A DNA stretch of 64,000 nt from Vibrio sp. CB1-14. Its GTDB lineage: Bacteria; Pseudomonadota; Gammaproteobacteria; Enterobacterales; Vibrionaceae. Each line of letters begins with the position of its first letter. Position 1 is the first letter of the stretch. The notes below the pieces were generated by a model. The model saw nothing but the letters and a program-made list of their open reading frames with translations. It was not told where the DNA came from and searched no databases. Shown here in pieces: positions 10,804 through 63,156 of the stretch. The stretch spans positions 1,178,001 to 1,242,000 of the forward strand of contig NZ_CP115920.1 of the NCBI RefSeq assembly GCF_040412085.2. Direction: 5' to 3'. A program made the position numbers and the translations under genes.

Positions 10804-12282
<1,479 letters not shown>

Positions 12283-36986: not shown

Positions 36987-37094
36987 GGAGGCCCTGGTCC
37001 TCCCGCAACAATAGCTCGTGAACTCGGTCAGGTCCGGAAGGAAGCAGCCGCAGCGAGTGACTTGTGTGCCGGGATGTGGCTGGGGCTTCCACCC
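36987..37094 (+). ncRNA. ffs: 4.5S signal recognition particle RNA
   Basis: A 108-nt RNA folding into the single SRP hairpin: the 5' GGAGGCCC pairs with the 3' GGGGCTTCC, and the apical domain carries the conserved GGTCAGGTCCGGAAGGAAGC segment with the GGAA tetraloop, then CAGCC and GTGTGCCGGGATGT. It binds Ffh for co-translational membrane targeting. The gene is intact. The transposon begins only 7 bp beyond its end, a known safe attachment site for I-F3 CASTs. Confidence 0.96.
37030..37049 (+). other. Protospacer in ffs matched by the element's second spacer
   Basis: AGGTCCGGAAGGAAGCAGCC in ffs matches spacer 2 (51770-51789) at 17 of 20 positions. The three mismatches fall exactly at 6, 12 and 18. 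The flanking PAM-position dinucleotide is TC (37028-37029) rather than the canonical CC of type I-F. From position 21 on, identity drops to chance. The transposon lies 47 bp (to the target duplication) beyond the end of this match. Confidence 0.85.
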
Positions 37095-37096
37095 AT

Positions 37097-37101
37097 CTAG
37101 C
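37097..37101. repeat. Target-site duplication, left copy (CTAGC)
   Basis: CTAGC directly precedes the element's TGT terminus and recurs directly after its ACA terminus at 63152-63156. A 5-bp duplication is the norm for Tn7-like transposition. Confidence 0.92.
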
Positions 37102-37168
37102 TGTTGTTAAAAGCATAACCTGTCCCAATAAAACCATAACTTGTCCTTTTAAAACCCTTAAAGTGTCC
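37102..37168 (+). repeat. Transposon left end with TnsB-binding repeats
   Basis: Three related repeats run in one direction: CATAACCTGTCCC (37114-37126), CATAACTTGTCC (37135-37146) and CTTAAAGTGTCC (37157-37168). The shared core (c)ATAA-N2-TGTCC also occurs inverted in the right end. Spacing of about 21 bp fits TnsB binding on one DNA face. Confidence 0.82.
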
Positions 37169-37210
37169 TAAGCTTATTTTGGTTGTTTTGCTACAACAAA
37201 AGGGACGCAT

Positions 37211-37837
37211 ATGTATATTCGTAATCTTCGCAAGCCATCGCCTAATAAGAACATCTACAAATTCTCGAGTCTCAAAAACCGAGATGCTGTCATGTGTGAG
37301 GGTAGTCTGGAGAGAGACTGCTGCTATCATTTCGAATATGATCCAGATGTAGTTCACTACGAATCTCAGCCAGAGGGTTTCTACTATGACTTCCATGGGA
37401 AAAAGCGCCCTTACACTCCTGATTTCCTAGCTACCTATGTTGACGGTACATTCAAGTATGTGGAAGTCAAACCACACTCGAAAACGTTATCTAAGACGTT
37501 TAAACAAGAATTTGCTGCTCGTAAAGAGGCTGCCAATCGAAGAGGATTTGGTCTTGTTTTGGTGACTGATAAGCAAATCAGAGATGGGTACTTTCTCAAA
37601 AACTCAGAGTTGGTACATCGGTATAGTGGATGTATCGAAGGCGATGAGCTTGCATTCAAAGTGCATTCGTATCTGATTTCACAGGAAACAATGAAAATCA
37701 GTGATCTAGCCGTCTCAATTGGAGAGTCCGTCGGTCGGGTGTTCGCTTCTGTTTTAAAACTGATTGCAGTAGGAAAAGCCGGTGTTGATTTAGATATCGC
37801 TATGTTGAGTGAAAGTACAACTGTTTCGGTGAGATGA
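37211..37837 (+). CDS. tnsA: Transposase subunit TnsA (5'-strand endonuclease)
   Basis: 208 residues with a PD-(D/E)XK restriction-type fold. The catalytic residues read D71 (YTPDFL), E85 and K87 (VEVKP); E33 in GSLERD upstream is the usual additional acid. A small winged-helix-like C-terminal domain follows (SDLAVSIGESVGRVFASVL). TnsA cuts the 5' ends of the element, allowing cut-and-paste movement with TnsB. AGGGA precedes the ATG. It is the first gene inside the left end, and tnsB starts one base after its stop. Confidence 0.93.
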   Translation: MYIRNLRKPSPNKNIYKFSSLKNRDAVMCEGSLERDCCYHFEYDPDVVHYESQPEGFYYDFHGKKRPYTPDFLATYVDGTFKYVEVKPHSKTLSKTFKQEFAARKEAANRRGFGLVLVTDKQIRDGYFLKNSELVHRYSGCIEGDELAFKVHSYLISQETMKISDLAVSIGESVGRVFASVLKLIAVGKAGVDLDIAMLSESTTVSVR

Positions 37838-37838
37838 A

Positions 37839-39755
37839 ATGGTTGGTCGATTCCATGATGAGTTCGAGCCAGAGTACAACGAAGATTCTGAAACAGAACA
37901 TGAGCTTTTGCCTGAAACTCAGACCGAACGTCTTAAATACTCGAGATTACAGTCGACACAGATTATTGAGCGAGATCTCTCTTCATATCCTGAGGAGCAG
38001 AAGAGCAAAGCGCTCGAAAGGTATAAATTGCTATCCTTAGTTGCGAATGAACTGAGCGGAGGTTGGACTCCTAAAAACCTCAACCCCCTAATTGAAAAAC
38101 ACTTCTCCAAAACACGTCTTACCAAGAAACCTAGCTATAAATCACTGCAACGTTGGCACAATTCATTTGTTGACTCGAATGGAAGTTTTACTAGCTTGGT
38201 CGATAAAAACCACCTTAAAGGTAATCGAGAAGCCAGAGTTATTGGCGATGAAAAATATTATGATGAAGCTCTGAAGATGTTCTTAGACGCAAGGCGACAG
38301 TCGATTAGAGCGGCATTCATCTTTTACAGCGACAGGATAACAGTAGCTAACGATAAGATAGTCGCCGGAAAAATACCCAAAGTCTCATATGAAGCGTTTA
38401 AGAAACGTATTCGCAAAGAGGAGCCATACAGCGTCGCGCTCGCTCGGCATGGGAAATACTACGCAGATAAGCTCTATAACTATTATCAATCTGTGGATAT
38501 GCCGACTCGAATTTTGGAACGAGTCGAAATGGATCATACCCCCTTGGATTTGATTCTATTGCATGATGACCTCATGGTGCCGTTGGGTAGAGCACATTTG
38601 ACACTGCTCGTAGATGTTTTTAGTGGGTGCATAATCGGCTTTCATCTAGGCTTTAAAGCTCCTAGTTATGTGTCGGCATCCAGAGCCGTTATTCATGCGA
38701 CAAAAAGTAAGAGCTACATTTCTGAAATGCCTATTTCATTCAACAATGAATGGCTTTGCGAGGGGAAAATAGAGAACTTGGTGGTCGACAACGGTGCGGA
38801 GTTTTGGTCAAAAAGCTGGGAGGATGCATGCTTGGAGGTTGGGATAAATGTCGTTTATAACAAGGTTCGCAAACCATGGTTAAAGCCATTTGTTGAACGT
38901 AAATTTGGTGAAATTGTTCAAGGGATTGTTGGCTGGGTGCCGGGTAAAACATTCTCTAACGTGCTGGAAAAAGAAGACTACAAACCAGAAAAAGATGCAG
39001 TCATGCGTTTTAGTACCTTCGTAGAAGAGTTTCACCGTTGGATAGTAGACGTGCACAATGTTAATGCTGATAGTCGTCATAAAAGAATACCAAACCTTTA
39101 CTGGGAGAAAAGCTATGACGTTTTACCACCATTAAAACTCTTACCCGATCAGGAGCAAGCATTTAGTGTCGTTATGGGGATTCTTCAGTATCGAAAACTG
39201 ACAGATAAAGGCATTAAGTTCATGCATATAGACTATGACTGTGTAGCGTTGTCTGATTATAGGAAGACGTACCCCCAAACAAAAGAGTCGTTGAAAAAGA
39301 AAATAAAAGTAGACCCAGATGATTTATCCGCTATCTACGTATACCTCGAGGAGCTTAAAGGATATGTGAAGGTTCCAAGTAAGGATCCAATTGGTTACAC
39401 CGTTAGATTGAGCGTTTGCGAGCATGAAAAGATTTTGGCGGCTCATAGAACCTATATAAAAGGCGAAATGGATGTACTGTCATTAGCAAAAGCTCGACTA
39501 GCTCTGCATGACCGAATTGAGTCAGAACAAGCAGACTTAATGCAGTTAACGCATTCTGAACGCAAGCGAAAAGTGAAATCGACTAAGAAAGTTGCAGAGA
39601 TATCCAGTGTTAACAGCGATACCCCTCACTCCAAGCTGAGTGATAGAGCGTCAAAATCAAGCTTTGGTATCTCAGAGCAGGAAACCAATTCTCAAACAAT
39701 TCCGCTAGAGAACTTTAGGTCTAAATGGAACGAGCGCAAAAACCGGAGGGAATAG
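37839..39755 (+). CDS. tnsB: Transposase TnsB (DDE family)
   Basis: 638 residues with the retroviral-integrase-type catalytic core. The DDE triad is D232 (EMDHTPLD), D317 (VVDNGAEFW) and E353 (KPFVERKFGE). N-terminal helix-turn-helix domains (about 50-200) should recognise the repeats in both ends, and a basic C-terminal tail contacts TnsC. TnsB performs 3'-end cleavage and joining. The start used is ATG 37839 right after tnsA, and the stop lies 2 bp before the tnsC start, so tnsABC forms one tight operon. Confidence 0.95.
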   Translation: MVGRFHDEFEPEYNEDSETEHELLPETQTERLKYSRLQSTQIIERDLSSYPEEQKSKALERYKLLSLVANELSGGWTPKNLNPLIEKHFSKTRLTKKPSYKSLQRWHNSFVDSNGSFTSLVDKNHLKGNREARVIGDEKYYDEALKMFLDARRQSIRAAFIFYSDRITVANDKIVAGKIPKVSYEAFKKRIRKEEPYSVALARHGKYYADKLYNYYQSVDMPTRILERVEMDHTPLDLILLHDDLMVPLGRAHLTLLVDVFSGCIIGFHLGFKAPSYVSASRAVIHATKSKSYISEMPISFNNEWLCEGKIENLVVDNGAEFWSKSWEDACLEVGINVVYNKVRKPWLKPFVERKFGEIVQGIVGWVPGKTFSNVLEKEDYKPEKDAVMRFSTFVEEFHRWIVDVHNVNADSRHKRIPNLYWEKSYDVLPPLKLLPDQEQAFSVVMGILQYRKLTDKGIKFMHIDYDCVALSDYRKTYPQTKESLKKKIKVDPDDLSAIYVYLEELKGYVKVPSKDPIGYTVRLSVCEHEKILAAHRTYIKGEMDVLSLAKARLALHDRIESEQADLMQLTHSERKRKVKSTKKVAEISSVNSDTPHSKLSDRASKSSFGISEQETNSQTIPLENFRSKWNERKNRRE

Positions 39756-39757
39756 TT

Positions 39758-40741
39758 GTGACCACAGTGAGAAGGAATTTGGAGCGGGATGAAGTTTTAG
39801 CAAACTATCATGACTCTTTTTCAATTTACCCAGAGGTTGAAAAAGTCCTCTCTGGACTCGAGTGGATAATGAGACGCAGGAAGTTTGGCACTTTTGCGCC
39901 ATCAATGCTTCTGACAGCTGGCACCGGTGCAGGAAAGACAGCCACAATTAATCATTTTATCGAGAAAAACTTATCAAGGAATGAAGTTCTTATTACTCGT
40001 GTAAGACCCACGTTACTTGAGACTTTACTATGGATGGCCAAAGAACTTGGAGCTTATAGAAATAGCAGAGCTAAGCCTTCAGAGATCGGGTTAACGGATT
40101 GTGTGATTGAAACATCGAAAAGAGTTGGGCTTAAATTATTAGTGATTGAGGAGTGCCAAGAGTTGTTTGAACGAACCAGTCATAACCAGAGGCAGGATAT
40201 TAGAGACCGTCTCAAAATGATTAGTGATGAGTGTCATTTGCCGATTGTGTTTGTAGGACTTCATAGTGCTGGACTAATTTTAGAAGACTCTCAGTGGAAT
40301 AGGCGAATTATGGTTCGACGCACACTCCCTTACATTAAGATCACAGATGAGCCTGCAATTGACAATTATTTAGATGTTTTAGATGCTCTCGAAAAGGCAG
40401 TGCCTTTAAGATTCAAGGTGCCGTTGACAGACGTTGATTTCGCAATGAGATTGTTATCGGCAAGCAAAGGTGTACTTGGTGAGATTAAAGAGTTAATTGC
40501 AGCCGCACTAGAGGTCGCTTTGGAGAAAAAGAAGGACTGTATTGACGAGGAGGACTTTGCTGCTGTTTACGAGAAAATTAACGATCCCAATGATACAAAT
40601 CCTTTCACTGTGCAGATAGATGCTCTAACTATTGAGCAAATAGCTTCTTATGAAAATTATGTCACCGATGCCGAGACTGGTGAACTTTGTTTTGTAAAGC
40701 AGGTGTTTAGCAAATTATCGATACAGCAACTTGTTGGTTAG
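39758..40741 (+). CDS. tnsC: AAA+ transposition regulator TnsC
   Basis: 327 residues from the GTG at 39758, which has GGAGGG at a 7-base spacing and follows the tnsB stop by 2 bp; an ATG at 39725 inside tnsB lacks a site. Walker A is GTGAGKT with K60, Walker B is LLVIEECQEL, and a sensor-type segment LPIVFVGLHS follows. TnsC is the ATPase that links the TniQ-Cascade target complex to the TnsAB transposase. It ends the left operon and is convergent with xre. Confidence 0.94.
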   Translation: MTTVRRNLERDEVLANYHDSFSIYPEVEKVLSGLEWIMRRRKFGTFAPSMLLTAGTGAGKTATINHFIEKNLSRNEVLITRVRPTLLETLLWMAKELGAYRNSRAKPSEIGLTDCVIETSKRVGLKLLVIEECQELFERTSHNQRQDIRDRLKMISDECHLPIVFVGLHSAGLILEDSQWNRRIMVRRTLPYIKITDEPAIDNYLDVLDALEKAVPLRFKVPLTDVDFAMRLLSASKGVLGEIKELIAAALEVALEKKKDCIDEEDFAAVYEKINDPNDTNPFTVQIDALTIEQIASYENYVTDAETGELCFVKQVFSKLSIQQLVG

Positions 40742-41979: not shown

Positions 41980-43398
41980 ATGACTATTCAGCACATTAAA
42001 GTTGGCAGTGTTCCCGATATTATTGAGCTAACACCAAACCCCAATCAGGAAAGTGACTTTCATCCTTTTACCCTATCAACGAATAGCACATGGGGAGAAC
42101 AGGGCTCTGAAGTATCAATAGAGAAATTACGCCAAAATATCGAGCCTTGGTTAACTGCTCTTTTCCAATCCGAACATTTAAATCTATTGATCGGTGCAGG
42201 TTTAAGTACGTCTATTCAAATGTCGGCTACGGGTGCACCACCCGCAGGAATGGGATGGATCAGTGATCTAACTGTCTGTCAAAGCGAAATAAATAGATCC
42301 GCTACAAACGCTGCCACTGCGGCTGGGCGCGCACAGGGAAATATAGAAGATCAAATTAGAGCTATTAATGAACTTATCAAAGGACTTGAGATTCTGACGG
42401 TATTGAATACCCCGCAACCTGTAAACCCTCCAGCTCCATTTGCAGCCTATAGAGACCTAAAAGCTGATTTAGATTCGATTAAGGGGGAGTTGTCTCGATG
42501 CCTAGGTGAGTTCTCAAAATCTGTCAGTACCGGAGAATACTTAATTAAAAGTGCTGAACCAGAACGGAAAGAAGAAACTTTCAATTATCTTGTGAGCTTC
42601 TTAATGAGCTTTGCGAGTAGAACCGCCACACGCGATAGGTTGCATATTTTCACAACGAATTACGATCGAATTATCGAAGTTGGTGCTGAACTTGCTGGTT
42701 TAAGACTCATAGATCGTTTTGTTGGAAGTATCGCTCCCGTTTTTAGATCATCAAGGTTAGAAGTTGATTATCACTATAACCCTCCGGGAATACGTGGGGA
42801 ACCAAGATATTTAGAGGGTGTAGCCCGTTTTACTAAGCTTCATGGGTCTCTTGACTGGCACGAGCAAGAGGGTGCGATAAGGCGTTTTGGTCTACCTTTT
42901 GGAGCACGCTCTGTTGAGCCGTTTCTAGAAGCTGAAGGTCACGAAAGCAGTAGCTATGAACAACTAATGATATACCCTAATTCAGTCAAAGACAGAGAAA
43001 CCGCAGAGTACCCCTATGTTGAGCTATTTAGAGATTTAGCAGCCGCAACTAGTCGTCCAAACAGCACGTTGGTCACGTATGGCTATAGCTTTGGTGATGA
43101 GCACATAAACCGCGTAATTGAGGATATGCTAACAGTTCCATCTACCCACCTAGTAATTATCGCTTTCGGTGACCCACTTGGAAGAATTATGAGTTTCATC
43201 AGAAAAAGTGGAAGAAAAGCGCAAATCACGTTACTGATGGGCGATCACTTAGGAGACCTCAAAACTTTAGTTGACAACTATCTACCCAAACCAGCCATAG
43301 ATAAAGCATCAATAAAGATGGCTGAGCTTCTAAAACAGAGAGGTTTCGTCCAGTCAGAATCCTCAAATAATACAACTACCCCTGAGGTAACACTATGA
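41980..43398 (+). CDS. SIR2-domain NADase of a SIR2-HerA defence system
   Basis: 472 residues. The SIR2-like NAD-binding elements are GAGLS at 72-76, TTNYD with N227, and the catalytic His H288 in KLHGSLDW; YGYSFGDEHINRVIED near 370 completes the family pattern. In SIR2-HerA anti-phage systems the SIR2 subunit depletes NAD+ when the HerA ring partner detects infection. The stop overlaps the HerA start by 4 bp, which means translational coupling. A long insertion at about 110-180 distinguishes it from stand-alone sirtuins. Confidence 0.88.
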   Translation: MTIQHIKVGSVPDIIELTPNPNQESDFHPFTLSTNSTWGEQGSEVSIEKLRQNIEPWLTALFQSEHLNLLIGAGLSTSIQMSATGAPPAGMGWISDLTVCQSEINRSATNAATAAGRAQGNIEDQIRAINELIKGLEILTVLNTPQPVNPPAPFAAYRDLKADLDSIKGELSRCLGEFSKSVSTGEYLIKSAEPERKEETFNYLVSFLMSFASRTATRDRLHIFTTNYDRIIEVGAELAGLRLIDRFVGSIAPVFRSSRLEVDYHYNPPGIRGEPRYLEGVARFTKLHGSLDWHEQEGAIRRFGLPFGARSVEPFLEAEGHESSSYEQLMIYPNSVKDRETAEYPYVELFRDLAAATSRPNSTLVTYGYSFGDEHINRVIEDMLTVPSTHLVIIAFGDPLGRIMSFIRKSGRKAQITLLMGDHLGDLKTLVDNYLPKPAIDKASIKMAELLKQRGFVQSESSNNTTTPEVTL

Positions 43399-45434
43399 GT
43401 TACCTACCAATTGAAAGATTAGAGCAGCTACGAATCGGAACTGTTGGTTTTGTATCACCGAGCGAAATTAGAGTATCCTTAGAAATAGACTCCCCAGATT
43501 CTGTGTCTCTCCAAGGAGGTTCTCCTCGCAATTTCCCGAGAATAAACAGCTATGTCCTGATAAGCAGCGATGAGGGATTTCTTGTTGGACAAGTTGAATG
43601 GATTGCGGTCGAACATTCGCCTTATCCTAAAAGAAAAGGCTTGCAAGATTTTGGCTTGATCGATCTACCTTTCCCACTCAAAAAGCTGAGTATCAATCCT
43701 GTGGGCACATTGAGAATCGATAGAAAAAGTGATGGATTCAAGTTTTCTAGAGGCACTGATGCATTTCCCTCTGTTGGTGATTCAGTCCTCCTGCCAACTG
43801 ACCAACAATTAAGATCGATAATCGAATCAGGTGAGAATAGAAGAGTTAAGATAGGTGATAGTCCTTTAGCCAATAATGCAGAAATTAAAATTGATCCCGA
43901 CAGACTTTTTGGGCGACACGTAGCTGTTTTGGGTAACACCGGAAGTGGGAAATCGTGCTCTGTTGCCGGGTTGATCCAATGGTCGTTAGACGCTGTATTA
44001 CGACAGGAGCAGACTCCGAATGCGCGATTTATAATTTTGGATCCTAATGGTGAATACAATCGAGCATTTGGCCCACTATCAAAATATAAAGGACATTTAC
44101 TACGCGTTGAGGCTAACTCTGAGGCAGGAGAACTAGATTTAAAAGTACCTTCATGGCTATGGAACAGCTCCGAATGGGGAGCTTTCACTCAAGCAAGTTC
44201 AAAAGTGCAGCTCCCTTTACTACGTCGTGCTTTGAGAGCCATGAGAAATGATGTTTTGTCTGCAGATGACATAACAATTCAAGCAAAACACTTTTGCGGG
44301 ATACTTCTCGTTGCTATGAGGCAACTAGCAAGTCAAGGTCAGATATATGTAAGTGGCGGTCATGCCAAGGGCTTGGTTGAGAGCTTGATGTCATGGGAAA
44401 GTAGTCTGTCCACGTTAAACGAGAAAATTGCCAGCCAACCTTTCAACAGCTTACTAAGCACTATAAACACTTTTCTGTCCTCTAGAAGAGGAATACAGTG
44501 GCCTGCTAAGCCAGAAGTCAGTGATACAGACAGGTTGATCGCTGATTTAAAAGAATCTCATGTCGCTCTTGGTGGTGATGAACAAGAACTACTTCCTAAA
44601 AGTGAAGATACACCCGTTCGTTTTGAAGGGGATGACTTTGTCGCATACCTAGAAGCTTTAGCACAAGAAACAGGAACAGAGCAGTTCGTAGAATTTCTTT
44701 TAACTCGAATTCGTACAATGTTAGGTGATACTCGAATTAGTGCTGTCACTAAAGATTCGGATCAACCTATTAGCCTAACAAACTGGTTAGACACTTTTCT
44801 TGGGAAAGACACGCATGGTGCAATAACCGTGATCGATCTCTCTCTCGTTCCAAATGAAATTATTCACCTCGTAACAGCAGTTATCTCTAGAGTAACATTT
44901 GAAGCCCTTCAACGTTACCGGAAAATGAATGGAAAACCACTTCCAACAGTAATGGTTGCAGAAGAAGCCCATACATTCATCAAACGCTATAAGGAAGAAA
45001 GTGAGAGCCAATCTGTCTCCGATGTGTGCTGCAAAGTATTTGAAAAAATCGCTCGTGAAGGGCGTAAATTTGGCTTAGGGCTAGTAGTATCATCCCAGCG
45101 ACCTTCTGAACTATCCCCGACGGTTTTATCTCAATGCAATACTTTTCTATTGCACAGAATCAGCAATGATAGAGACCAAGAACAAGTCCATAGACTTGTT
45201 CCCGATAACATGAGGGGCTTATTAAGGGAGCTTCCTTCGTTGCCATCACGCCATGCAATTTTACTAGGATGGGCTTCGGAGTTACCCGTTCTAGTTCGAA
45301 TGAAAGAACTGACTGAAGAGCAAAGGCCACAGTCTGATGATCCTGATTTCTGGAACGTATGGTCTAATTCAACAGCGGAACCTCGTGAGGTAAACTGGCA
45401 GCTCATTGCAGAAGAATGGCAAAACCGAGACTAA
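43395..45434 (+). CDS. HerA-like hexameric ATPase, partner of SIR2
   Basis: 679 residues. The N-terminal HAS-barrel (about 10-100) precedes a HerA/FtsK ATPase: Walker A LGNTGSGKS with K186, ILDPNGEYNRAFG, Walker B TVMVAEEAHTFI, and the sensor GLGLVVSSQRPSELSPTVLSQ. HerA proteins form rings that translocate on DNA; in this pairing it regulates the SIR2 effector. A large insertion at about 270-480 lies between the Walker motifs. Coupled to the SIR2 gene and within the transposon's cargo. Confidence 0.9.
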   Translation: MSYLPIERLEQLRIGTVGFVSPSEIRVSLEIDSPDSVSLQGGSPRNFPRINSYVLISSDEGFLVGQVEWIAVEHSPYPKRKGLQDFGLIDLPFPLKKLSINPVGTLRIDRKSDGFKFSRGTDAFPSVGDSVLLPTDQQLRSIIESGENRRVKIGDSPLANNAEIKIDPDRLFGRHVAVLGNTGSGKSCSVAGLIQWSLDAVLRQEQTPNARFIILDPNGEYNRAFGPLSKYKGHLLRVEANSEAGELDLKVPSWLWNSSEWGAFTQASSKVQLPLLRRALRAMRNDVLSADDITIQAKHFCGILLVAMRQLASQGQIYVSGGHAKGLVESLMSWESSLSTLNEKIASQPFNSLLSTINTFLSSRRGIQWPAKPEVSDTDRLIADLKESHVALGGDEQELLPKSEDTPVRFEGDDFVAYLEALAQETGTEQFVEFLLTRIRTMLGDTRISAVTKDSDQPISLTNWLDTFLGKDTHGAITVIDLSLVPNEIIHLVTAVISRVTFEALQRYRKMNGKPLPTVMVAEEAHTFIKRYKEESESQSVSDVCCKVFEKIAREGRKFGLGLVVSSQRPSELSPTVLSQCNTFLLHRISNDRDQEQVHRLVPDNMRGLLRELPSLPSRHAILLGWASELPVLVRMKELTEEQRPQSDDPDFWNVWSNSTAEPREVNWQLIAEEWQNRD

Positions 45435-46595: not shown

Positions 46596-47807
46596 ATGGA
46601 TACGAACATTGAGCTTTACCCTGATGAATCGCTTGAAAGCTCTCTGTTGCGCTTGAGTCAGCATCAAGGTTATGAGAGTTACTCTCACTTCGCAGAAGAT
46701 ATTTGGCATGAGACGCTAAACTCAAATGAAGCCATCCCCGGTGCTTTCCCACTAGACCTCAATCGCGTAAATATCTATCACGCTCAAACCACAAGTCAAA
46801 TGCGGGTTAGAGTGCTTATCCAACTTGAAAAGCGACTTCAGCTTAATAATTATGGCATTCTTAGGCTTGCGTTAAACCACTCTAAATCTGGGTTCTCTCC
46901 TGATTATAAAGCTGTTCACCGTTTTGGAATCGATTACCCTTTCTGTTTTCTTCGAAAACGTTTTACGCCGATTTGTCCACGTTGCTTGGCTGAAGCACCT
47001 TACATTCGACAAATTTGGCACTTCGTTCCTATTAAAGCTTGTGAAAAGCACCAATGTGAATTGATTGATCGCTGTCCTGAGTGCAAATCGTTACTCGAAT
47101 ATCAAAATACCGAGAGCATTACACAATGTGAGTGTGGTTTCGACCTGCTAGAAAGCGAGGTTAAAGCAGCACCGAACGCGGAATTAATGACGGCAAAGTG
47201 GCTAAGTGGAGAGAATAGCTTAGAAGCAGGTTTGATGAGCAAAGCAATGACCATATCAGAGCGATTCGGTATTCTACTTTGGTATTTAAATCGGTACGGT
47301 GACACAGATGATATTAGCTTTGACTCATTTGTTGATTATTGCTCGGCTTGGCCTACTGGTCTTGAACAAGAGCTCGATGCGTTGGTTGAAAAAGCGGATG
47401 TTATTAGAATTAAAGACTGGAGTAACGTTTTTTTCTCAGAAGCGTTCGGTAGTGTACTGAAGGGTTGTCGTCATCTACCAAGCCGAGAGTTAGGTAAAAA
47501 TGTAGTTTTGACGGAAGTGCTCAATCACCTTTCTAAGCTTGTTGCGGACAATCCTGTGTCATCGAAGGGAAACATTGCAGATGTGCTATTAAGCCCTTTA
47601 GAGGCATCTACATTGCTTTCTTGCACAACGGATGAGGTGTATCGGTTGTATGAGTTCGGTGAAATCAAGGCGGCTATCAGGCCGCGTATGCACACCAAAA
47701 TAGCCAGCCATGAGTCCGCCTTCTCTCTAAGAAGCATTGTAGAAACAAAGTTAACTCGAATGTGCTCGGAAACCGATGGGCTTAGCGTTTATCTACCGGA
47801 GTGGTAA
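46596..47807 (+). CDS. tniQ: TniQ targeting protein of the I-F3 CAST
   Basis: 403 residues with the TniQ domain: N-terminal PDESLESSLLRLSQHQGY and two zinc-binding motifs, CPRC near 130 with CEKHQC and then CPEC with CECG up to about 190. A helical C-terminal domain follows. In I-F3 systems a TniQ dimer binds Cascade at the Cas6/Cas7 end and recruits TnsC. The start is ATG 46596 with only GGTGG upstream. It is the first gene of an operon with the cas genes. Confidence 0.93.
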   Translation: MDTNIELYPDESLESSLLRLSQHQGYESYSHFAEDIWHETLNSNEAIPGAFPLDLNRVNIYHAQTTSQMRVRVLIQLEKRLQLNNYGILRLALNHSKSGFSPDYKAVHRFGIDYPFCFLRKRFTPICPRCLAEAPYIRQIWHFVPIKACEKHQCELIDRCPECKSLLEYQNTESITQCECGFDLLESEVKAAPNAELMTAKWLSGENSLEAGLMSKAMTISERFGILLWYLNRYGDTDDISFDSFVDYCSAWPTGLEQELDALVEKADVIRIKDWSNVFFSEAFGSVLKGCRHLPSRELGKNVVLTEVLNHLSKLVADNPVSSKGNIADVLLSPLEASTLLSCTTDEVYRLYEFGEIKAAIRPRMHTKIASHESAFSLRSIVETKLTRMCSETDGLSVYLPEW

Positions 47808-47809
47808 GC

Positions 47810-49897
47810 ATGACTAAACTAGCAGATTTGCTGGTAATCGAAGATGTTGCGGTAAAACAAGCGGCAATGAAAAAATGGTTTATGCCGTACACCGCAGATG
47901 TGGAAGTTGATGGGTTTGAGGAAGCGGCGTTAACGGTACTAGTTAACTTAAGCTCTCATCAAAAAGGTGATAAATGCAATGATTGGTTAGATAAAGTCCG
48001 TGCGAAGCAGCATTTAAACGACTCGGATAACATAGAGTCATCACTGGCTGAATTGAAATGGCTTCACTCGCATAATCTGAAGTTTCCGGACTGCCGCGTA
48101 AGAGAGCAAAGGCTCATCGCAAAACCGCTTCCAACGGAAGAAGTGTTTATTTCGGGAAGAAGTCTTGAACCGAGTTTAGGCTGGGCACACAACTCAGCAT
48201 ACTACCGACATGTATTGTGGTTATTGAATCCTTTTCGTTGGCAATCCAAATCAACCAATGTTCTCACGTTGGTGCGAGAAGGACAGCCGATTTGGTTGGC
48301 GTTGTTGCAAGAATTTGGATTAGAGGTCAAATCGCTCGTCGCTTTGCAAAAGGCGATTAACGCACAAGTTCCAGATTCAACCTTTCCAACATCAGTCAGT
48401 CCGTATAGTAAGCAAATGCGATTTCCGTGCGGTGATGATTATGTTTCTATCACGCCAGTCGTGAATAATTCAATACAGCGAGAGTTAGAAGTTCGGGCTC
48501 GTGATAAAAACCGTAAGCTTAGTTTTGTGACGTCATCACTGCCTAATTCTGCCAGTATTGGTAGCTTGTGTGGGAGCCTTGGCGGCTTTATGAAAGTGAT
48601 GAACTATCCGCTTGAGATTAAACCAACACAGCAAGCTACGTTGGCAGCAAGCCGCAGCAAAAGTGGGCGTTACCTTGATGACTATCAGGTGACGAATTAT
48701 CAGATTTGTCAGGTGCTCAATAGGATGATTGGCGCCGAACCCCTTAAAACCAAAAAGCAAAGAGACAAAGCGCGTAACGTTCAAAGCAAGATCCTAAGAA
48801 AGCAGATAGCGCTATGGATGCTGCCATTGATTGAACTGCGAGACCGAGCCGATTTAACCCCAAGCGAACGCCTTTTAAAACATGACGATCCTTTAGCCTA
48901 TGATTTTTTGACGCTGCCAGAAGTAGAGCTGAAATCACTCGCAACGCAATTCAACCATCGGCTTCACTATGCGTTTCAGGAGAATAAATTTACTCATAAG
49001 TTCGCCTACCACCCAAGGCTGCTACAAGTTGTTAAAGCTCAGATAGTGTGGGTACTTAGCCAATTGAGCAAACCAAGCACTAGTAATGAGATGGTCCAAA
49101 GCGAGCAATACATTTATCTTTCTTCCATGCGAGTTCAAGATGCCGTGGCGATGAGCTGCCCATATTTGTGTGGCGCACCATCACTTACGGCCATTTGGGG
49201 CTTCATGCACCACTATCAAAGAGAGTTTAATCGGTTGATTGGAAGCGACTCATCGTTTGAGTTTTCAAGCTTCTCATTTTTCGTTCGAAGTGAAGGTATA
49301 CGGTCTACTGCAAAACTGACCGAGCCGAACTCAGTGGCAACCAAACGAACGGTTTCTAACGCCAAACGCTCAACGATTCGCAGTGAGAGGTTAGTCGATT
49401 TAGAGATAGATATGGTGATTCGAGTCCATGGTAGCGAGCGATTGTCGGACTACGTATCTGAGTTAAAAGCAACGTTACCAACGGCATTTGCGGGAGGATA
49501 TTTATTTCAGCCGCAGATTTCAGCTGAAGTTAATTGGTTGACAACGTTTAGCAGCCAATCTGAACTGTTTCATATTATCAAGGGCAATCCGGCTTACGGG
49601 CGTTGGCTGTACCCTATTGAGCAGCAACCGATTAACTTTGATGAACTTGAGGAAATGATTGTCGATGATAGCGATAACATCCCTGCTTCCCTTGGTTATC
49701 ATTTGTTAGAGAAACCGGCAGTCCGTGCGAACTCTATAATGGAACATCATGCCTATGCTGAGAATGCGTTAGGGATTGCGAAGCGAGTAAATCCGATTGA
49801 AGTTCGATTTAGTGGGCAAGGTCACTATTTTGAGCGAGCGTTTTGGTCGATAGAATCCAGTGGCGAAACTATTCTTATAAAAAACTATAGGAATTAG
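47810..49897 (+). CDS. cas8f: Cas8f-Cas5f fusion protein
   Basis: 695 residues from the ATG at 47810, three bases after the tniQ stop, with GGAG nine bases upstream; a GTG at 47801 overlaps tniQ. The natural Cas8-Cas5 fusion of this length is diagnostic for I-F3 CASTs. Visible stretches are SLGWAHNSAYYRHVLWLLNP, a basic region at about 320-350, and the late PTAFAGGYLFQPQISAEV. It should hold the 5' handle of the guide and read the PAM. Assignment is by size, order and overall resemblance. Confidence 0.9.
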   Translation: MTKLADLLVIEDVAVKQAAMKKWFMPYTADVEVDGFEEAALTVLVNLSSHQKGDKCNDWLDKVRAKQHLNDSDNIESSLAELKWLHSHNLKFPDCRVREQRLIAKPLPTEEVFISGRSLEPSLGWAHNSAYYRHVLWLLNPFRWQSKSTNVLTLVREGQPIWLALLQEFGLEVKSLVALQKAINAQVPDSTFPTSVSPYSKQMRFPCGDDYVSITPVVNNSIQRELEVRARDKNRKLSFVTSSLPNSASIGSLCGSLGGFMKVMNYPLEIKPTQQATLAASRSKSGRYLDDYQVTNYQICQVLNRMIGAEPLKTKKQRDKARNVQSKILRKQIALWMLPLIELRDRADLTPSERLLKHDDPLAYDFLTLPEVELKSLATQFNHRLHYAFQENKFTHKFAYHPRLLQVVKAQIVWVLSQLSKPSTSNEMVQSEQYIYLSSMRVQDAVAMSCPYLCGAPSLTAIWGFMHHYQREFNRLIGSDSSFEFSSFSFFVRSEGIRSTAKLTEPNSVATKRTVSNAKRSTIRSERLVDLEIDMVIRVHGSERLSDYVSELKATLPTAFAGGYLFQPQISAEVNWLTTFSSQSELFHIIKGNPAYGRWLYPIEQQPINFDELEEMIVDDSDNIPASLGYHLLEKPAVRANSIMEHHAYAENALGIAKRVNPIEVRFSGQGHYFERAFWSIESSGETILIKNYRN

Positions 49898-50845
49898 ATG
49901 CTTATGGATTTGTGTAGCCAGCTTAATTATGTTCGTTCTCTGTCCTCAGGGAAGGCGTATTTTTACTACTTATCAAAGAATGATGAGATGTGTCCTATTG
50001 GTGTTGATAGAACACGATTACGAGCACCAAAAGGAGGATATGCTGAAGCGTACAAAGGCAGTAATTTCTCTCCTAGAAACGTGGCACCTCAAGATTTAGC
50101 TTACGCTAACCCCCAGTATATTGAAGAGTGCTACGTTACACCCGGGGTAGATGATATTTATTGCGCTTTTTCTCTTCGTATTCGAGCCAATTCCCTAAGC
50201 CCTGAGGTTTGCAATGACAATGGTGTTCGCGATGCGTTGCTGTCGCTGGCCGCTACCTATAAAGAGCTTAATGGCTACCAAGAGCTGGCGCACCGTTACG
50301 CCAAAAATATTTTGTCAGGTAAATGGCTGTGGCGAAATAAAGAATGTCGAGGTTTGTCTATTGAGGTGACGACGAGCGACAAAGGAAACATAGTGGTGGA
50401 GGATGTCACTAGGCTCTCTTGGTATGGTAAATGGGATGAACCATCTGCGCAAAGCCTTGAGCTGTTGACGGCTTATCTGACTCGTGCGTTGTCAGAGCGT
50501 TCTGAGTATTTCTACATGGATATTCGAGCCAAACTGTCTGTTGGATGGGGAGATGAAATATACCCGAGCCAAGAATTTCTAGACAGCAAAGAAGATGGGG
50601 TGCCGACTAAAAAATTAGCAACGATAGAACTGCAAAATGGTAAAGAAACCGTTGCGTTTCACGGACAGAAAATTGGTGCTGCACTGCAATCAATCGATGA
50701 TTGGTGGCATGAAGATGCAGACAAACCTCTACGGGTGAATGAGTATGGTGCTGATCGAGAGTATGTGATTGCGAGAAGGCATGTTGCGTTAGAAAATGAC
50801 TTCTATCATTTGATCAAAGACACGGAGGCTTGGACCAAAAAATGA
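49898..50845 (+). CDS. cas7f: Cas7f (Csy3) Cascade backbone
   Basis: 315 residues, slightly shorter than commonly seen for Csy3. It begins immediately after the cas8f stop with TAGGAAT as the ribosome-binding site. Family landmarks include SGKAYFYYLSKNDEMCPIGVDRT near the start, NPQYIEECYVTPGVDDIYCAFSLRI, and YREW-like WLWRNKECRGLSIEV. Copies polymerise along the guide RNA, each covering six nucleotides and flipping out every sixth base, a rule that the ffs match obeys. Confidence 0.9.
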   Translation: MLMDLCSQLNYVRSLSSGKAYFYYLSKNDEMCPIGVDRTRLRAPKGGYAEAYKGSNFSPRNVAPQDLAYANPQYIEECYVTPGVDDIYCAFSLRIRANSLSPEVCNDNGVRDALLSLAATYKELNGYQELAHRYAKNILSGKWLWRNKECRGLSIEVTTSDKGNIVVEDVTRLSWYGKWDEPSAQSLELLTAYLTRALSERSEYFYMDIRAKLSVGWGDEIYPSQEFLDSKEDGVPTKKLATIELQNGKETVAFHGQKIGAALQSIDDWWHEDADKPLRVNEYGADREYVIARRHVALENDFYHLIKDTEAWTKK

Positions 50846-50948
50846 ACGAAACCCAAGTTATTTCTAATGAGGTTCACTTCATTATGTCCGTATTGGTCAA
50901 GGGAGGTCTATTCAATGGTTCAAGTAGTAAGGCTAAGTGAGGACGAGT

Positions 50949-51551
50949 ATGAAGCAACGGTATTACTTCTATATACGCTACCTTCCATCAGAGGCAGACT
51001 GTGGCCTACTTGCAGGGCGGTGTATCAGTCAAATGCACAAGTTTATGGTCAATAATAAACAGGCCATGAACCAAATAGGAGTGAATTTCCCGAGCTGGAG
51101 AGTCGATTCCATCGGTCATACCATTGCTTTTGTTTCCGAAGATAAAGAGCTTTTGATTGGATTGTCTTTTCAACCTTACTTTTCTGTTATGAAAGAAGAA
51201 GAGCTATTTGAACTATCAGCTGTTAGCGAGGCTCCAGAAGGAGCTGCTGAAGTGAGGTTTGTCAGAAACCAGACGATAGGTAAAAGCTTCATTGGCTCTA
51301 AAAAGCGAAGAATGAAACGCAGTATGATTAGAGCAGAACAAACAGGTGCTGAGCCATTACCCGAAGCAGATGAAGAGCGCGAGGTTGAACATTTTCATCG
51401 AATTCCAATTTCTAGTGGCTCATCTATGCAGGACTTCATTTTACATGTTCAAAAAGAACATGTTGGCGAGCGCGTCCGTGCTAGTTTTAACAGTTATGGC
51501 TTCGCCACCAACCAAGATAAACGAGGAACCGTACCTGATATTCACTTTTGA
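50949..51551 (+). CDS. cas6f: Cas6f (Csy4) guide-RNA endoribonuclease
   Basis: 200 residues from the ATG at 50949 with GAGGA upstream; a GTG at 50937 is the only earlier start. The catalytic His should be H30 (SQMHKFM), aligning with H29 of Pseudomonas Csy4. An arginine-rich helix (SKKRRMKRSMIRAEQ, about 118-132) fits recognition of the repeat hairpin major groove, and the terminal RASFNSYGFATN resembles the conserved YG loop. It cuts at the 3' base of the repeat hairpin and stays bound. Confidence 0.9.
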   Translation: MKQRYYFYIRYLPSEADCGLLAGRCISQMHKFMVNNKQAMNQIGVNFPSWRVDSIGHTIAFVSEDKELLIGLSFQPYFSVMKEEELFELSAVSEAPEGAAEVRFVRNQTIGKSFIGSKKRRMKRSMIRAEQTGAEPLPEADEEREVEHFHRIPISSGSSMQDFILHVQKEHVGERVRASFNSYGFATNQDKRGTVPDIHF

Positions 51552-51681: not shown

Positions 51682-51815
51682 GTGATCTGCCGCATAGGCA
51701 GCTAAGAAAGGATGTTCAATTGACGCCGAACGCGCCTCATTGTGATCTGCCGCATAGGCAGCTAAGAATAGGTCAGGAAGAAAGCAACCTACCTGCTGAA
51801 CAAGCAGTAGATAAT
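51682..51815 (+). CRISPR. Minimal I-F3 CRISPR array: three repeats, one full and one truncated spacer
   Basis: Repeat 1 (51682-51709) and repeat 2 (51742-51769) are 28 nt with the hairpin CTGCC-GCATA-GGCAG; they differ only in the last base (A to T). Spacer 1 (51710-51741) is 32 nt and matches nothing I can see here. Repeat 3 (51788-51815) is strongly diverged but keeps a 5-bp stem, CTGCT-GAACA-AGCAG, in which the loop-closing pair changed on both sides. Spacer 2 between repeats 2 and 3 is therefore only 18 nt (51770-51787), with two further bases of ffs identity running into repeat 3. A terminator follows at once. It lies 130 bp after cas6f on the same strand. Confidence 0.93.
51762..51807 (+). 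ncRNA. Predicted short homing guide RNA (46 nt)
   Basis: If Cas6f cuts after each hairpin, the second guide would consist of the 8-nt handle from repeat 2 (51762-51769), the ffs-matching 18-20 nt, and the repeat 3 hairpin ending at 51807. That is 46 nt compared with 60 nt for the first guide. Processing at the diverged repeat is inferred from its compensated stem. Confidence 0.7.
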
Positions 51816-51816
51816 C

Positions 51817-51848
51817 AAAACCATTGAGTTTCGGCTCGATGGTTTTTT
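51817..51848 (+). terminator. Terminator of the CRISPR array
   Basis: AACCATTGAG and CTCGATGGTT (one G-T pair) form a 10-bp stem around TTTCGG, followed by TTTT. It starts right after repeat 3, confirming that the array ends there. Confidence 0.82.
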
Positions 51849-52591
51849 GTTAGGTAGTGGCGCAATTCCATGAAGAGTGAGGCGTATTGAGTGTTGCTGA
51901 CCGAACAGTGAATGTGGATGTTCTTTGGCCAATGTGCTGACGCATTTATGCCACATTATGAGTTTACACTTGTCGAACTCGTTCTCCTGCGATTTGCCGC
52001 ATGATTTAGTTTTGCTAATACCTGAATGAACAAAAGATGGGTTTTACCAAATTAGCCTTTTTTGGATAAACGGATTTGCCTGCTCAGGCCTACTCCCTGA
52101 AACATACTACGAATCGTACGCTGATAGTTCACTAGAGTGCATAAACTCACACCTTAGGTATGAAAATGCGCAATTGAGTAAACCACATGGTTCACTGTTG
52201 TCCGCCATTGTCCATCATTGTCCATGCGTGGACAACAGTGGACAATGAAGAACAATGGCTCCATAAAGTCGTCTGTTAAAGTCACTGGCACGCTTTTGCC
52301 TCGAAACGTGTTTCACACCATCCCAACCACCATTGAGCAGATTCTCCACGCAATAAGTCAATATTTACCCACTTGTCTGTATCAACAAAATATCAATACG
52401 CATTTATAGATACAGCCTATAAAACAACAACTTAACCAACCCACTATATGATAGTGACTATAACGTAGTGGGTGCGGTTCATTGTCAATAATGTATGATT
52501 GTTTGTGCCCTGAGTCGCAAAAGAGTTAGTAGCCCCTACAACCCAATTAATTCACTAGTAGGCTGCTCCTTCCAAAACACAGGGGGTATGA
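51849..52591. other. Intergenic region after the array, no supported gene
   Basis: About 740 bp without a convincing gene. The one strong feature is a cluster of TTGTCC/GGACAA motifs forming a near-perfect inverted repeat at 52206-52247, annotated separately. A GGGGG ribosome-binding site at its right end serves the gene at 52592. Confidence 0.5.
52206..52247. repeat. Inverted repeat built from TTGTCCA units
   Basis: CATTGTCCATCATTGTCCA (52206-52224) and TGGACAACAGTGGACAATG (52229-52247) form arms of 19 bp with three mismatches around a TGCG loop. Another TTGTCC precedes at 52197-52202 region. The TTGTCC core is the same as in the element's TnsB-type repeats, but spacing is 10-11 bp rather than 21. 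Confidence 0.65.
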
Positions 52592-63040: not shown

Positions 63041-63151
63041 TTAAAATTGGGACGCTTTATGGTTTTAATTTGGGACATTTTATAGTTTTAACTTGATTCT
63101 AACTTATTGATTTTAATGTGTTTGATTGGACGCCTTATGGTATTAACGACA
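63041..63151 (+). repeat. Transposon right end with TnsB-binding repeats
   Basis: Three inverted versions of the left-end repeat: ATTGGGACGCTTTATGG (63046-63062), TTTGGGACATTTTATAG (63069-63085) and ATTGGACGCCTTATGG (63125-63140), then TATTAACGACA ending at 63151. The terminus reads ACA, complementary to the TGT at the left end. Confidence 0.85.
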
Positions 63152-63156
63152 CTAGC
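63152..63156. repeat. Target-site duplication, right copy (CTAGC)
   Basis: CTAGC directly follows the ACA terminus and equals the pentamer before the left TGT terminus. Confidence 0.92.

Follow-up and report, generated by a model that had tools for sequence, protein, structure and literature searches.

An I-F3 CRISPR-associated transposon from Vibrio with a probably shortened homing guide to ffs, and relatives whose insertion distance goes with guide length

The window, a stretch of 64 kb from Vibrio sp. CB1-14, carries an I-F3 CRISPR-associated transposon (CAST) that spans positions 37102-63151 and lies right behind ffs; all window features described here are on the forward strand. The homing target gene ffs encodes the 4.5S SRP RNA (36992-37088; Rfam RF00169, 76 bits) and contains the matched protospacer of 20 nt (37030-37049), which is preceded by a TC PAM (37028-37029). 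TC is reported to be the predominant PAM (96.6%) in ffs-homing I-F3 elements (PMC12774636). The target site duplication (TSD) CTAGC is present at both ends of the element, at 37097-37101 on the ffs side and at 63152-63156 on the distal side. The ffs-proximal transposon end (37102-37180), which starts with TGTTGTTAA, lies 72 nt from nucleotide 1 of the protospacer and holds CATAAC(C/T)TGTCC repeats as putative TnsB sites; the distal end (63120-63151) finishes with ATGGTATTAACGACA. Between the ends we found tnsA (37211-37837; PF08722, 6.7e-15), tnsB (37839-39755; weak matches to PF09299 and PF00665), tnsC (39725-40741; TniB PF05621, 5.3e-14), a cargo pair encoding SIR2-like and HerA-like proteins (41980-45434; PF13289 and PF01935), tniQ (46596-47807; PF06527, 1.8e-13), a cas8/5 fusion (47801-49897), cas7 (csy3, 49898-50845) and cas6 (csy4, 50937-51551; PF09618, 2.1e-20). 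The cargo pair, assigned here from Pfam matches, presumably represents a known anti-phage arrangement. In the cas8/5 fusion the Csy2 domain (PF09614) was matched, and the Cas8 part was assigned from its length and place.

The element has these features of an I-F3 CAST: tnsA, tnsB, tnsC and tniQ together with cas8/5, cas7 and cas6 (cas7 being frameshifted), defined ends with a 5-bp TSD, and an array guide that matches the conserved gene beside the insertion. As is also asked of such elements, the Cas2/3 nuclease model TIGR02562 had no match in the window's genome. What is usual, but not defining, for I-F3 systems is a 32-nt guide with insertion about 49 bp beyond a 32-bp target; the guide length and insertion distance found here are non-standard, and we take them as a variant feature. 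The cas7 gene ends early: it breaks at an A-run, and the last ~33 residues of its relatives follow in the -1 frame to about position 50936 (50845-50936), whereas its closest relative (95%) is full length. This frameshift near the end of cas7 may reflect real inactivation, slippage or a sequencing error, so the window copy may be idle or mis-assembled.

Downstream of cas6, the array comprises two ordinary repeats (51682-51709 and 51742-51769) that start 60 nt apart and enclose the 32-nt spacer 1 (51710-51741), then spacer 2 (51770-51789), a 3-nt linker with a diverged, atypical repeat hairpin (CTGCTGAACAAGCAG, 51790-51807, the hairpin itself at 51793-51807) and a strong intrinsic terminator of the array transcript (51816-51849; fold of -15.8 kcal/mol, z -6.1, followed by a T-run). 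No credible target of spacer 1 was found in the plasmid collection, in which the single weak match covered 69% of it. Spacer 2, AGGTCAGGAAGAAAGCAACC, is identical to ffs, AGGTCCGGAAGGAAGCAGCC, at 17 of 20 positions. The mismatches are at positions 6, 12 and 18, the guide bases reported to be flipped out at every sixth position (PMC12774636). Our script comparison reproduced this match, which an earlier sequence-only reading of the locus had pointed out, and likewise found little identity beyond position 20. Also in agreement with that reading, the hairpin after spacer 2 begins 14 nt early, 23 nt after the spacer start (51793) compared with 37 nt for spacer 1 (51747), and its loop-closing pair is altered on both sides with the stem kept (CTGCC/GGCAG to CTGCT/AGCAG). 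Such a diverged last repeat with a preserved stem is characteristic of atypical (private) crRNAs, though the longer stretch folds in a shifted register. The hairpin would act as the Cas6 site and form the 3' end of a short crRNA. A guide of 18-20 nt had been proposed; the shortening is supported, and we favour a length of 20 nt because it agrees with both the extent of the match and the 6-nt step. The linker between such a 20-nt guide and the hairpin, 3 nt in the window, is 4-5 nt in other branches.

The 22-nt tail at 51788-51809 folds to a single hairpin (-6.5 kcal/mol, z -3.3, with 1 of 200 shuffles as good). For the longer stretch 51762-51815, the lowest-energy fold has the register-shifted stem CUGCUG/CAGUAG (z -1.6, 14 of 200 shuffles), and the ordinary spacer-1 unit (51710-51769) also lacks its repeat hairpin in the lowest-energy fold (z 0.06). 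Therefore, RNA folding is weak and partly supportive evidence for the early hairpin, and it is conservation that carries the point. The case for the ffs match rests on recurrence: it goes beyond chance because the short unit is found in 51 of 81 ffs-homing elements and because the guides of 42 distinct pairs agree with their ffs genes.

Relatives were sought with an alignment of 47 Cas7 proteins. From named genomes, 80 loci, the best of 104, were taken, and 227 same-genus genomes were searched, 82 of which had some Cas7 match, other I-F types included. Of the 87 elements then examined, chosen by a list drawn up by hand, an ffs-like homing unit is present in 81. The six without it are G021, G115b and G189 with araC-type units, G204 and G135 at contig ends, and G198, for which the stretch was too short; its counterpart, the named locus L007, which its coordinates place on the same contig, carries a short unit. 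The 81 do not include named loci that we took to duplicate same-genus genomes, and L026 (by coordinates G085, in which cas7 is broken up) has a short unit but stands outside this count. The ffs-homing elements divide into 51 with short, five with intermediate (Halomonadaceae) and 25 with full-length units. The hairpin starts 23 nt (37 elements), 24 nt (9) or 25 nt (5) after the spacer start in the short class, 33 nt in all five Halomonadaceae, and 37 nt (1), 38 nt (20) or 39 nt (4) in the long class; 11 of the 81 starts were set by hand (G196, L033, L034, L037, L043, L047 and the five Halomonadaceae), L033 being the weakest. Ordinary repeats keep a spacing of 60 nt in 58 of 62 intervals in short-class arrays and in 52 of 52 in the remaining classes, and 17 I-F3 arrays without an ffs unit show 59-61 nt, except one interval of 121 nt in which a repeat probably escaped detection.

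All 51 short rows fall into one clade of the Cas7 tree (support 100/99), which comprises 59 rows, eight of them with no detected ffs unit, and no long row. The short guide, earlier presented as a property of this element, is therefore shared by a clade and occurs in 51 of 81 ffs-homing elements. An assembly or decay artefact confined to the window genome might be suspected from the cas7 frameshift at the A-run, but is practically out of the question for the guide, since the unit recurs in these elements and a separate plasmid record has it unchanged over 55 nt. The Cas7 obtained is shorter than 335 residues in five of the 51 short-class rows, including the window's, so that some copies may be inactive. 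Photobacterium aquae L006 has two successive short ffs-like units (12010-12090) and the farthest insertion of the short class (75, TSD CTGGC), and the Neptunomonas elements L044 (12067) and L045 (12239) have a second, more diverged ffs-like unit farther downstream.

We compared a chosen set of ten tail hairpins, from which L033, a doubtful case, and two tails whose loops have 4 nt were left out. In this set 98% of the cells are paired and three of the five pairs are changed on both sides, so the covariation that the sequence-only reading had suggested as a check was indeed found. The covariation score was reached by 2 of 500 shuffles, and none of the slid registers attained any of the observed measures; the number of further pair types was ordinary, as 102 of 500 shuffles reached it. 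Four elements, all from one branch, combine ordinary CCGCC/GGCGG repeats with CCGCT/AGCGG tails, as expected if one Cas6 reads both repeat and tail.

Each guide was compared with the ffs of its own genome, giving 42 distinct short-class and 17 long-class pairs. At non-flipped positions, short guides match in 680 of 714 cells at positions 1-20 and in 115 of 420 at positions 21-32, whereas the corresponding values for long guides are 251 of 289 and 136 of 170. At the flipped positions 6, 12 and 18, the bases agree in 2 of 126 cells for short, 6 of 51 for long and 2 of 6 for intermediate guides. The ffs gene itself is more conserved in its first part: among 43 distinct sequences of the loci surveyed, the majority base at non-flipped positions accounts on average for 93% at 1-20 vs 72% at 21-32. 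A short guide, confined to this best conserved part of ffs, could fit a wider range of hosts.

We then determined the distance from the transposon end to nucleotide 1 of the protospacer in the 66 of the 81 elements that had a measurable end. It is 68-75 nt for the short class (n = 47, median 68), 72-73 nt for the intermediate class (n = 3) and 78-84 nt for the long class (n = 16, median 80.5), where L059 can be read as 78 or 81. The short and long distances do not overlap (Mann-Whitney p ~1e-10, a value that overstates independence because of shared ancestry). With 32-nt guides, insertion is reported about 82 nt from the PAM in VchCAST (PMC13345079, a preprint) and about 49 bp past the target in VchCAST and VpCAST (PMC12774636, PMC13345079, PMC11702153); the published 82 less 12 gives an expected distance of about 70 for a short guide. 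The window value of 72 is 4 nt above the commonest short value of 68. In the Halomonadaceae, with hairpin starts of 33 set by hand, the insertion at 72-73 is below the prediction of a strict rule. TSDs were tried in 43 elements, of which 15 were accepted, 14 gave loose matches judged unconvincing and 14 none, the misses being partly due to stretches that end before the distal end. Nine TSD-backed elements are short (the window, 72; G097, G196, G043, G131, G106, L034 and L037, 68; L006, 75), one is intermediate (L053, 73) and five are long (L035 and L039, 79; L048 and L051, 80; L061, 83). L034 and L037 are from Aliivibrio, the first branch within the short clade.

Some further features were seen around the insertion sites. 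In L205 (~14996) and L035 (~14963), the distal end and its TSD are immediately followed by another transposon end of this kind, indicating tandem ffs insertions. The ffs-side end of many TGA-type elements (L114-L117 and others) holds AAGCCTGCAAT...ATTGCAGGCTT, resembling the terminator behind the empty ffs of L138, and in these elements the transposon end may replace the ffs terminator displaced by insertion. L048 (11961-12057), L051 (12021-12117), L064 (12322-12418) and L105 (319-415, minus strand) each have a further SRP RNA gene immediately beyond the array (Rfam RF00169, 59-69 bits), which may be either a spare copy of ffs that belongs to the element or part of the flanking DNA.

The short unit could in principle be an ordinary 32-nt spacer whose PAM-distal part has drifted, the early hairpin being incidental or a degenerate array end; I-F3 systems are reported to tolerate mismatches (PMC11406308), and the shifted stem in the longer fold would be in line with this. 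We consider such drift highly unlikely and reject it on two grounds: the position of the hairpin (23-25 nt) and its pairing are kept across the clade, and the insertion is ~12 nt closer than with full-length guides, which drift would not cause. The matches that long-class guides keep at positions 21-32 also speak against it. According to the sequence-only reading, related elements with the same insertion site but a full-length ffs spacer would have counted against a shortened guide. There are 25 elements with such a spacer, but the 16 measurable ones insert ~12 nt further away, which supports the idea.

As all short ffs units are in one clade, the ffs comparison alone amounts to one event confounded with lineage. 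The distance could therefore be set by the transposase or TnsC spacing of that lineage, or by selection for landing behind the mature ffs end, with guide length as a by-product. The clade contains two transposase modules, with TnsA 48-99.5% identical to that of the window or 34-47% (the label was taken from TnsA, which among the 'other' short elements covers 35 of 37, all but L028 and L037). Their ends differ by ~3 nt, as a lineage effect would predict, but the shift is present in both: 69-75 nt in window-like elements (n = 10, median 71) and 68-69 nt in the others (n = 37, median 68).

Three further cases served as controls for guide length versus lineage. The first is the mobilizable Vibrio plasmid pTHAF190c_c from Vibrio sp. 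THAF190c, with heavy-metal-type cargo, whose CAST (L237, NZ_CP045341.1 47098-85152) has the identical short ffs unit (55 of 55 nt). A plasmid gene annotated as DNA cytosine methyltransferase is matched by the 32-nt spacer 1 of this CAST at 21 of 27 non-flipped positions with a CC PAM, and pieces of this gene lie on both sides of the element. The insertion through this 32-nt spacer has its end at 79, with AAAAG on both sides, whereas TGA-type ends as on this plasmid give 68-69 with short guides. None of 20000 shuffled spacers reached 21 of 27 in the 70-90 nt interval, and we reject a chance origin of the match. The second is G021, inside the short clade, whose ffs is empty and whose 32-nt guide is directed to an araC-family gene (HTH_AraC), with a match at 25 of 27 non-flipped positions; the end is at 83, with GCGTT on both sides. 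The third, G189 from another branch, also has an empty ffs, and its guide targets an araC-family gene orthologous to that of G021 (89% identical protein). A hairpin at 27 cuts this guide short. Of its non-flipped positions, 16 of 17 agree with the target within the first 20 nt (a manual count) and 20 of 27 over 32; the transposon end is at 69, the distal end being off the contig. The tail hairpin of G189, CTACC/GGTAG, differs on both sides from its own ordinary CTGCC/GGCAG, and we infer that this guide was shortened separately from the ffs unit.

The araC-family gene is the homing target of three short-clade elements, G021, the G115 plasmid and G189 (L018, L192, L194, L196, L214), and a review does not name it as one of the four main att sites of I-F3 systems (PMC11406308). 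For the G115 plasmid element, none of three 32-nt spacers had a match above 18 of 27 within 60 kb, and hence no distance was obtained. A pattern of the araC-type unit (≤3 mismatches) matched in 41 of 227 genomes, but reversed controls matched too and the known G021 unit was missed; at known array units it matched in G115 and G189 only, and it therefore carries little weight.

Taken together, the two modules and the three controls allow the effect of guide length to be told from those of lineage and target. On pTHAF190c_c the same short unit and TGA-type ends go with 79 when a 32-nt guide is used, and orthologous araC-family targets within one clade, for which constraints of ffs are irrelevant, give 83 with the full and 69 with the short guide. 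An explanation by the transposase alone is thus rejected, and a distance set by lineage or by selection at ffs has very little probability left.

The reading we prefer, and regard as very probable, is that natural guides of ~20 nt would work in a smaller Cascade with four Cas7 subunits rather than six, the ruler for insertion being anchored at the 3' end of the guide. One array would then encode two guide sizes, the ordinary 60-nt units giving 32-nt guides and the last unit the ~20-nt ffs guide, which would be ended by the early hairpin, diverged in sequence yet still paired and presumably recognised by Cas6. For I-F1 systems, spacer length L and Cas7 number N are reported to follow L=6N-4 (PMC7296934), so that 20 nt correspond to four Cas7, and two Cas7 fewer fit both the 20-nt match and the ~12-nt shift. 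The 32-nt I-F complex is described with six Cas7 (PMC7296934, PMC12774636). The sequence-only reading had proposed a naturally shortened homing guide and a Cascade with three instead of five Cas7 steps. The shortened guide is borne out by sequence and insertion geometry (47 short elements and three controls); the smaller Cascade would follow from it, with the count corrected to four instead of six. The short crRNA would assemble this complex, and TniQ and TnsABC would dock at the 3' (Cas6) end of the guide, placing the insertion ~12 bp nearer the target. Klompe and co-workers reportedly found in 2019 that Tn6677 integrates little or not at all with shortened guides. A review contains an ambiguous sentence on such guides (PMC10188703), and a structure preprint describes rearrangements near guide positions 25-32 (PMC13345079), with which a 20-nt guide, lacking these positions, sits awkwardly. 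The clade may be adapted to this, or it may be the end of the complex that is sensed for licensing.

The advantage of the short guide would be guiding by the most conserved 20 nt of ffs, and perhaps also that the host I-F1 system could not use it to cut ffs. The latter concerns purpose and is compatible with the short-guide mechanism: a 20-nt R-loop would license transposition but be unable to trigger a resident I-F1 Cas2/3, so that ffs stays uncut. The I-F1 Cascade with a 20-nt guide is reported to bind and to form an R-loop of guide length without triggering Cas2/3, and guides shortened by 6, 12 or 18 nt gave no Cas2/3 activation in vitro (PMC7296934). In addition, the guides differ from ffs at the flipped positions in 124 of 126 cells, and of the 47 genomes with an I-F3-type Cas7 that were searched, three have a Cas2/3, all of them with short ffs units. 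However, 44 of the 47 genomes had no Cas2/3 match, 25 elements keep unshortened ffs guides, and the conservation of the first 20 nt of ffs would explain the shortening equally well. We consider such protection of ffs possible but rather doubtful as the purpose.

The element shares with AsCAST from Aeromonas salmonicida the tnsABC, tniQ and cas8/5-cas7-cas6 genes, the ffs att site, the TC PAM, the atypical last repeat, the 5-bp duplication and the tolerance at every sixth base. It differs from VchCAST and VpCAST, which use the 32-nt guides and ~49-bp spacing given above, by its ~20-nt guide and by insertion ~12 bp nearer. Type V-K CASTs likewise keep a shortened homing spacer (~17 nt, with a truncated repeat) apart from ordinary spacers, but their effector is Cas12k, the unit is usually outside the array and the targets are mostly tRNA genes (PMC9938897); the effector genes here are cas8/5, cas7 and cas6, and shortening in V-K implies no change in subunit number, unlike in type I. 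Binding without cutting by short guides is also described for I-F1 -12 complexes (PMC7296934) and for short I-B spacers and crRNA-resembling RNA (PMC10989794). These shortened type I Cascades are engineered or regulatory, whereas the guide in the window is natural, linked to transposition and recorded in the insertion site. Short I-F3 homing guides were not met in a full-text literature search; the primary I-F3 homing papers (Petassi 2020, Klompe 2022) lay outside its coverage and may have noted them, so that priority is uncertain.

To summarize, these elements provide a natural experiment on the transposition ruler, in which the start of the target is the same, the guide length is different and the insertion has moved by the matching amount. 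The 20-nt guide is also relevant to the licensing model, in which rearrangements are placed near positions 25-32 that such a guide lacks, and suggests compact, possibly nuclease-safe guides for CAST tools. For the family, guide length may be an evolved setting, a reading on which we are evenly divided: a four-Cas7 homing complex would license transposition without positions 21-32, with the ruler at the 3' end, and would be unusable by a resident I-F1 nuclease on ffs. One array would thereby serve two Cascade sizes, and this arrangement would have arisen at least twice in the same clade, for ffs and for the araC-family gene, and perhaps partly a third time in the Halomonadaceae.
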